Positions 39,365 to 41,067 of a stretch of DNA of 41,138 nt are shown in pieces. The stretch's first letter is position 1; each line of letters starts with the position of its first letter. The DNA comes from an archaeon GW2011_AR19 (GTDB lineage: Archaea > Nanobdellota > Nanobdellia > Pacearchaeales > GW2011-AR1). The notes beneath the pieces were generated by a model. That model was not told the DNA's origin, did no database searches, and was given only the letters and a program-made list of their open reading frames with translations. Location of the stretch: NCBI GenBank assembly GCA_000806015.1, contig JWKY01000004.1:1-41138 (forward strand), written 5' to 3'. Both the position numbers and the translations under genes were made by a program.

Positions 39365-39380
39365 GGGAAAGTTTAAATAG
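39365..39380 (+). promoter_or_regulatory. BRE/TATA promoter of the DGR-like target gene
   Basis: The sequence ggggaaagtttaaatag gives a BRE followed by TTTAAATAG (39372-39380), about 25 nt before the ATG at 39401: a strong leaderless promoter. The same BRE/TATA is found before vapB and at 40641-40657. Confidence 0.65.
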
Positions 39381-39400: not shown

Positions 39401-40078
39401 ATGAAAATCAAAGAAGGAAAAACATATTTAACAGTTCCCCACGAAGGAGGAGAACTTACTTTTCAACATCCTGCATTTAAAGGAACTTATGGAAATGTTG
39501 CAGAGCAAATTGATAAAGCTGGTTTGAAAAGACCAAATTCTTCAGAAACAGCGTCATTAGTTTATGATGCTTGGCAAACTCCAGATGAAAGATATTCACA
39601 AGAAATAATTTCAATTCTAAAAGATAATTGGTTTTGGGAATTCACAGGAAACTTATATTTACCAAAAAGAGAAGGCGAAGAATTTCACAATGGAGTTCTT
39701 ATTGAACACAATCCTAAAATTGAAAATGGAAAATTAGTTATGAATAAAAATGATTTAATAAAAAGATTAAAAGAAAATGATTCTAATGTAAAATTTGTTC
39801 CATTTGGATATAAAATTGACTCACAAAATTTATCTGAATTTAAAAAAAATCTATATATTCAAGAAAGATATGGTGAAGAAGGAGCTGAAAAAATTGTAAG
39901 AGTTGCAGATAAGTATTCAAATAAACCTCATCTTTGGAGTTTTGATTCTGTTGATGAAGAAAAAGTGCGAATGTCCGCCCTGTACAGGTACTGGAGCTTT
40001 GACGACGGGTTGAATGTCAGTGGCGACGGCTGGTGCGACAACGATCTTGGTCATGCCTTCGGGGTATGTGGGGAATAA
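39401..40078 (+). CDS. Probable DGR target protein with C-terminal variable lectin-like region
   Basis: 225 residues. The N-terminal two thirds (1-185) is AT-rich and ordinary, with FVPFGYKIDSQNLSEFKKN and RYGEEGAEKIVRVADKYSNKP, which reads like CPR/DPANN DGR targets. The C-terminal ~38 residues (SALYRYWSFDDGLNVS.. through AFGVCGE) follow the compact formylglycine/C-lectin ending with fixed Trp198, Gly203 and AFGV 219-222. The variable residues are Ser199, Phe200, Asp201, Asp202, Ser207-Gly210, Cys212-His218. No signal peptide is visible. No template repeat or reverse transcriptase lies in the window. Confidence 0.8.
   Translation: MKIKEGKTYLTVPHEGGELTFQHPAFKGTYGNVAEQIDKAGLKRPNSSETASLVYDAWQTPDERYSQEIISILKDNWFWEFTGNLYLPKREGEEFHNGVLIEHNPKIENGKLVMNKNDLIKRLKENDSNVKFVPFGYKIDSQNLSEFKKNLYIQERYGEEGAEKIVRVADKYSNKPHLWSFDSVDEEKVRMSALYRYWSFDDGLNVSGDGWCDNDLGHAFGVCGE
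39965..40078 (+). other. Putative DGR variable region (VR)
   Basis: A 114-nt segment, much GC-richer than the surrounding AT-rich DNA, with an abrupt left border at about 39965. Fifteen codons in three clusters (199-202, 207-210, 212-218) all end in C or T and are all reachable from AAC or AAT by changing only adenines, for example AGC, TTT, GAC, GGC, TGC, CTT and CAT. Between them are fixed residues such as Trp198, Trp211 and AFGV. That is the signature of adenine-specific mutagenic retrohoming. The matching A-rich template repeat is not in this window. Confidence 0.75.
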
Positions 40079-40080
40079 AA

Positions 40081-40527
40081 ATGAAAAAACATATTATAGA
40101 AGCAATTAAAAATTATAGAAATTTTTTAAGTGACTAAGGCATTCAAGGAAGATTACAAAAAAACTTAATTAAAGGATTAGAAAATATTTTTATTAAGAAG
40201 TCAAAAAATGATTTATTAGATAAACCTTTTGATTATCGTTCTTTGTTTAATGAAAATTCTCATAATCTGGCGGTTAGGATTTCAAATTGCTTAAAAAGAC
40301 AAGAAATTGAAACATATGCTGATTTAGCAAAAAATTGTTATAAATTAACTAAAGAAAAAAAATCCTTAATATGAAAAAATGATGAAAAAGCTTATTTTAG
40401 CTATCTTTCCCATGTGAGAAATCTTGGTGATAAAAGCGCTGATGCAATTATATTGCATTTAAAGTCAATAAATTTCAATTTTAGTGAAGAATATGCCAAG
40501 GAAGTTTTTGAAAAAAGTAAGAAGTAG
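40081..40527 (+). pseudogene. Broken gene with alpha-CTD/HhH-like C-terminus, next to the VR
   Basis: One frame of 148 codons interrupted by TAA at codon 19 (40135-40137) and TGA at codon 98 (40372-40374); otherwise it reads as a normal helical protein to the TAG at 40525. It starts 2 nt after the target gene stops. The stretch LAVRISNCLKRQEIETYADLAKN and the end YLSHVRNLGDKSADAIILHLKSI resemble the RNA-polymerase alpha C-terminal (helix-hairpin-helix) fold. It could be a decayed DGR accessory gene. It does not resemble Avd to me. Confidence 0.65.
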
Positions 40528-40640
40528 TTAATAACTTTTATATGTAGTTTATAACTTTTTAAAAGATACATTTTAAAGTGGTTCTGAGAAATCACTACTA
40601 AAGATTAAGAAACCCTTGTCATTTTAAAAAGGTAACATAA

Positions 40641-40679: not shown

Positions 40680-41067
40680 CACCTCTTTTTCCCCAGGAGA
40701 AGCTTCAAGTCATCTTTTTAAGCGGCTTGGAGAATCTCCCAGGGTTGTCTTAAAAAGACAACGCTTGAAACGAGAACGATCGTTGAGTGGGTTGTAATAA
40801 AAAAGATATTGATAATTAAAAAAGTCGTGGAGCGCGTTAATTTTTTTTAGAATTAGCTCCCACGCATTATATTCTTAAATTTCTAAATTTGCTGAAAGTT
40901 TTAGGTTTTTAATTTGCATTTTTCCGTAGGAAAAATGAATTTATTTGCTCCGAAATCGTCTCTGACAGATTTCTCCGCCAAGAAAAGAATTATCGCCGTA
41001 AAAATTTTGAAGTTTAACTAATCCCTTGTTTAATAATAATTTGGTGATTGAGTACTTTTAGCACCAA
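40680..41067 (+). ncRNA. Candidate structured noncoding RNA (unassigned)
   Basis: A strong promoter drives a region without an ORF but with consecutive hairpins. Helix 1 (40691-40744): CCC, GGAGA and CTTCAAG pair with CTTGGAG, TCTCC and GGG, with two 2x2 internal loops. Helix 2 (40744-40762): GTTGTCTT/AAGACAAC, loop AAA. Helix 3 (40826-40864): CGTGGAGC/GCTCCCACG. Helix 4 (about 40918-40938): CATTTTTCC/GGAAAAATG. Helix 5 (about 40951-40972): GAAATC/GATTTC. Helix 6 (about 41041-41066): TTGGTG/CACCAA. CTTTTTAAG in the helix-1 loop could also pair with CTTAAAAAG of helix 2. No RNase P, SRP or tRNA signatures are seen. The 3' end is uncertain. Confidence 0.5.

Follow-up and report, generated by a model that had tools for sequence, protein, structure and literature searches.

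The window analysed here, a stretch of 41,138 nucleotides, comprises the whole of contig C4 in an assembly of 678 kb distributed over 20 contigs and estimated to be 74.5% complete. Close to its right end lies an AT-rich gene with a GC-rich 3' end which, judged from its sequence, is a target gene of a diversity-generating retroelement (DGR). The features of this locus are the following:

39372..39379, + strand: TATA-like box (TTTAAATA), about 25 nt before the ATG, recognised by eye from the sequence
39401..40078, + strand: gene of the DGR target (variable) protein, 225 aa, one of three related targets in the genome
39965..40069, + strand: GC-rich variable region (VR), with variable codons at 39979-40053 and constant flanks GTGCGAATGTC... 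and ...GGGGTATGT

The GC content of positions 39965-40078 is 0.561, against 0.284 in positions 39401-39964 and 0.304 in the whole window. When the window was scanned in segments of 114 nt, only 0.02% of them reached this value, namely the block itself and its neighbours, and none was higher. An earlier interpretation made from the letters alone (hereafter the sequence-only reading) had described a GC-rich 114-nt end in an AT-rich gene, which is borne out (56% against 28% in the gene body), the block being the richest 114 nt of the window. The same interpretation had listed a promoter among the features seen; the TATA-like box at 39372-39379 would probably act as a promoter and give rise to a leaderless transcript. 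Downstream of the target, a plus-strand reading frame at 40081-40528 contains two in-frame stops (TAA and TGA) and has the look of a decayed gene. The intergenic segment at 40680-40800, near the contig end, is GC-richer, features inverted repeats and has no match in Rfam; in the window as a whole, neither Rfam families nor tRNAs were detected.

The target protein has no match in Pfam, PHROGs or the PDB and constitutes an orphan family. Single-protein scans of genome contigs and viral contigs with the target returned no relatives, and its AlphaFold model, built with six sequences, has a pLDDT of 42, too poor for a fold search. A C-type-lectin (CLec) fold of the variable domain, as in one class of DGR variable proteins, is neither supported nor contradicted by these results.

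In DGRs, an error-prone reverse transcriptase (RT) copies the RNA of a template repeat (TR) and misreads its adenines, after which the cDNA replaces the VR. Two paralogs of the target gene occur in the same genome, at C1:131495-132169 and C7:2580-3257, with amino acid identities of 74% and 69%, respectively. Alignment of the three VRs revealed 34 variable columns, seven of which vary between C and T only; once these are set aside, an A is present in 25 of 27 columns, while shuffles give 51%. The presence of an A is by itself a weak test in an AT-rich gene, where 66-69% of the differences in the gene body also involve this base, and for this reason shuffles and the template of a relative were used instead. 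The template was provided by G023, a genome of the same family with a complete cassette of target gene, TR and RT, whose target protein is 65% identical to the product of 39401-40078 and whose TR has 15 mismatches to its own VR, 15 of 15 at an A of the TR. When this TR was aligned with the three VRs of the present genome, the columns with A in the TR were variable in 20 of 29 cases, against 7 of 57 for the others (Fisher p=1.8e-7, C/T-only columns set aside). Since the variable columns of the VRs match the adenines of a homologous TR, and since two paralogs carry differently mutated VRs, the gene is assigned to the DGR targets, with a visible VR, as had been proposed from the sequence.

At 17 codons of the block the encoded residue differs between the three paralogs, and nearly all of these codons can be reached from AAC, AAT, AGG, CAA or GAT by changes of A only. 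The A-reachable pattern noted earlier, for 15 codons and with AAC and AAT as starting points, is retained. The truly fixed residues of the block are Gly208, Trp211 and Ala219-Phe-Gly-Val-Cys; of the positions previously listed as fixed, Trp211 and the AFGV stretch remain, Gly203 varies (Gly/Arg/Arg) and the C7 paralog has Arg in place of Trp198.

No RT was detected in the 678-kb, 74.5%-complete assembly, either with PF00078 or with a lineage-specific profile built on 16 RTs of the lineage, at E<=10. In the same assembly, blastn with the VR and with the inferred TR recovered the three VRs only, with no fourth copy, and an A-tolerant scan around all three target genes found no TR. The genome search which the sequence-only reading had put forward as its check, for an A-rich near-copy of the block and a DGR-type RT, therefore yielded neither, and the active cassette it had inferred is unsupported in the organism's own genome. 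It had also stated that the lack of both elements, together with a lack of A-linked differences, would speak against it: TR and RT are indeed missing from the assembly, whereas A-linked differences are clearly seen. The absence of RT and TR from an assembly of 74.5% completeness is not proof.

The divergence of the VRs offers a further indication. In the columns where the G023 TR has a base other than A, the VRs of the three paralogs differ pairwise at 8-11 of 64 positions, and the gene bodies differ by 17-21%; in the working cassettes of relatives, non-A differences between TR and VR amount to about 0.3 per 70 nt. Because the non-A divergence of the VRs is close to that of the gene bodies, recent rewriting from one shared TR appears not to have taken place.

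Homologs of the target were found in 38 of 138 family genomes, and RTs co-occur with them (24 of the 38, against 26 of the 100 others; p=1.2e-4). Several relatives hold target homologs without an RT (G010, G077, G095, G129, G066, G049, G033 and others, including assemblies of 5-10 contigs), and orphan targets may thus be common in this group. A region of G001, a genome of the same genus (C26:4678-6036; L306, L308), carries a target gene, a PemK/MazF-like ORF (named by eye) and then a C-terminal remnant only of an RT, consisting of its last ~30 residues, a layout which suggests deletion of the RT.

The three target genes were in all likelihood rewritten by RT/TR mutagenesis in the past. Given that the assembly contains neither RT nor TR and that the VRs have drifted, the genes would now be either orphaned or acted on from unassembled sequence. 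The former is on balance favoured over an unseen active cassette, on account of these two observations and of the RT tail which is all that G001 retains. It is still possible, if rather unlikely, that the organism's own DGR is intact and active, with RT and TR located in the missing quarter of the genome and acting in trans on the three targets. The completeness of 74.5% is compatible with such an arrangement, as is the frequent position of relatives' VRs and TRs at contig ends (short matches), and passages of Paul et al. 2015 (PMC4372165) propose that one nanoarchaeal DGR may serve several genes. However, none of the three target genes has the adjacent TR and RT which are usual in relatives, even though contigs C1 and C7 continue past them, and the seven C/T-only columns, along with the 8-11 non-A differences in 64, are unexpected after rewriting from one TR. 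The remnant in the same-genus G001 and the lack of an RT in G095, G049 and G129, genomes with target genes assembled in few contigs, also argue for orphaned targets.

Among the relatives, a TR-VR pair with at most two non-A mismatches in 70 nt accompanies 95 of 153 RT loci, while the same search gave 0 of 153 when C, G or T took the role of A as the variable base. Many RTs of the family are divided into two ORFs by a simple repeat at one site, immediately upstream of motif 4 (GMPLGNLTSQ); where the RT is intact, this site often has the repeat in a shorter or in-frame form. In a set of 155 full-span cellular DGR RTs, with duplicates removed, 105 consist of one ORF and 50 are broken; a repeat occurs in 42 of the broken RTs and, counting any position, in 23 of the one-ORF RTs. 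The breaks concentrate at positions 170-190 of the RT model, a loop between motifs 3 and 4, and at positions 230-248, a loop after the YVDD motif, with the site before motif 4 predominating. These two loops hold 56 repeats in 17.7 kb (3.17 per kb), against 12 in the 140.6 kb of the rest of the RT (0.085 per kb). The repeats are tracts of G8-G13, one C11 and AG repeats of about 5 to 27 units; CGAACG or CGAAGC is usual on the 3' side of the G tract, and ACGCGAGC is often found after the AG tract. The longest repeat seen, with ~27 AG units inside the RT gene, belongs to locus L280 (G076:C1). At L287, L039, L286 and L288 a candidate second switch site is present, where G10-G12 follows motif 5 (model positions 236-240) and the RT is broken there and not before motif 4.

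About 36 separate runs of at least 10 G occur in 126 family genomes, 10 of them inside DGR RT genes, and most of the others are intergenic or at contig ends. Of 371 phylum genomes, 19 contain a G8 tract with motif-4 DNA at most 35 nt downstream (21 loci in total), while the reversed pattern gave 0. Eight of these loci lie outside the order, in eight further families; all are DGR RTs with the tract at model positions 178-185, seven broken and one in frame, and the tract pattern as a whole spans many genera and at least nine families. Of 41 RTs from viral contigs, 40 are intact, with no clustering in the loops. Six tract-plus-motif matches (G and AG versions) in 2.9 million viral contigs were inspected, and none is an RT.

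The RT profile matches the DGR RT structure 8ub7 along its entire length (positions 2-333, E=1.5e-66); at the location of the repeat, the loop of 8ub7 is shorter. This structure is that of the Bordetella phage BPP-1 enzyme; its PDB record reads 'Reverse transcriptase' only. When an intact archaeal RT was modelled with AlphaFold (mean pLDDT 76), the loop encoded by the repeat, residues 181-187, scored below 50. On these models the loop is length-tolerant, and as such a natural place for a repeat.

The broken RTs mostly have a single break, at the repeat, and the frame is shifted both ways (17 and 21 of 38). Among RTs bearing a tract, about a third are in frame at the tract (17 of 53), and 16 of 53 is compatible with one third (p=0.67), a fraction which is only indicative as split RTs had been deliberately fetched. 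The RT tree requires at least 27 changes between tract and no tract and, among tract bearers, at least 14 between G and AG, from which it follows that tracts come and go repeatedly. The closest pairs of tract-bearing RTs are 78-84% identical, for example two paralogs in G126 with 81% identity, one with G8 (out of frame) and one with G9 (in frame); near-identical RTs differing in tract length were searched for among the RTs, with no pair beyond this 78-84% range. Beside the repeat-broken RTs, a TR-VR pair is present at 29 of 42 loci, with 428 mismatches at A and 8 at other bases. The corresponding figures for one-ORF RTs are 679 and 15 without a repeat, and 146 and 0 with one. Mismatches virtually confined to A next to broken RTs imply that the broken cassettes worked recently.

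Two features expected of contingency genes are accordingly found in the RTs of the relatives, namely a repeat within the coding sequence which sets the frame, and broken alleles which are otherwise intact and recently functional. In the mechanism proposed, the relatives' RT gene has a simple-sequence repeat in one of two loops, ahead of motif 4 or following motif 5, and slippage of the repeat would put the RT in or out of frame, rendering hypermutation phase-variable. It is probable that the DGR RT of DPANN (Nanoarchaeota-type) archaea is a contingency gene of this kind, in which G, C or AG slippage in two loops would toggle hypermutation, so that a receptor variant could be locked in and its diversification taken up again later. 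From the sequences we infer that slippage would be reversible in living populations and would turn hypermutation on and off.

A related observation concerns five cassettes of Woesearchaeota, Aenigmatarchaeota and Nanoarchaeota in which the RT is intact and a G8-G13 tract lies between the target gene and the TR (L157:1755, L171:2651, L180:1332, L162:2707 and L151:2698). These tracts are just upstream of a conserved leader (ATGAAATACA...GACAG), and the RT starts 290-520 nt further on. A tract in this gap could set the promoter spacing of the TR-RT transcript and act as a second possible switch.

Homopolymers can promote slippage, and the out-of-frame alleles could in principle yield full-length RT if the transcribing polymerase slipped on the repeat or the ribosome shifted frame there, in which case they would not be switches. 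The broken cassettes do look as recently active as the intact ones. Nevertheless, this explanation is improbable, since the direction of the shift is not conserved (17 against 21, which speaks against a conserved programmed frameshift at the repeat), the G runs can be replaced by AG repeats and in one case by C11, and an in-frame share of roughly one third among tract-bearing RTs, indicative as it is, would be expected of a freely slipping DNA repeat. There is even less to recommend the view that the broken RTs are ordinary pseudogenes or assembly and sequencing errors. Repeats are error-prone for assemblers, but the repeat itself is enriched at one place whether in frame or not, in G, C and AG forms, most broken RTs have their single break at it, A-only TR-VR pairs (428:8) lie next to them, and the phenomenon recurs over many genera and at least nine families. 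As for the target gene, the notion that its 3' block is a GC-rich insertion or an ordinary fast-evolving ligand loop and no VR is hardly credible, as composition alone could reflect a foreign insert but homologs of the block face A-rich TRs with A-only mismatches.

Overall, the best explanation, to which a probability of roughly 0.9 is assigned, is a DGR target gene of a DPANN archaeon, now orphan or served from unassembled sequence, in a lineage where the RT of relatives appears phase-variable by slippage. Archaeal DGR targets are already known, and the gene in the window, taken alone, is nothing unusual among them and is probably orphaned. What is of interest lies in the relatives, where an RT with a reading frame apparently set by a slipping repeat would be new. 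To our knowledge, no targeted diversifier of proteins is faster than DGRs, and by what means cells shield a good variant from them is an open question. If the proposed mechanism is true, a mutator switch would provide a simple answer to the keeping of good variants, making hypermutation a stochastic, heritable on/off state, and it would represent a rare case of repeat-driven phase variation in archaea. No description of a repeat switch in a DGR RT emerged from the literature searched, although an earlier mention in Paul et al. 2017 is possible; in the text searched, neither Paul et al. 2015 (PMC4372165) nor Roux et al. 2021 mentions a frameshift, a homopolymer or a split.

Three known systems are close enough for comparison. 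The Nanoarchaeota DGRs of DUSEL4 (Paul et al. 2015, PMC4372165) also occur in DPANN hosts, with orphan target genes and several targets in a genome; their TR and VR differ specifically at A, and some targets have no RT of their own. They are unlike the RTs presented here in that a frameshift, a split RT or a repeat tract is absent from the passages and term matches of that paper. The DGR RT of Bordetella phage BPP-1 (8ub7) is of the same RT type and shares the [L/I]GxxTSQ form of motif 4; its loop before this motif is shorter, and in the profile alignment the stretch that bears the repeat has no equivalent there. The contingency genes of Neisseria, Campylobacter and Helicobacter (PMC5084427, PMC2823697) likewise have their reading frame determined by the length of G or dinucleotide repeats within the gene. 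Theirs, however, mostly encode surface or restriction-modification functions, whereas here the candidate switched gene would be a targeted mutator, and its hosts are archaea.
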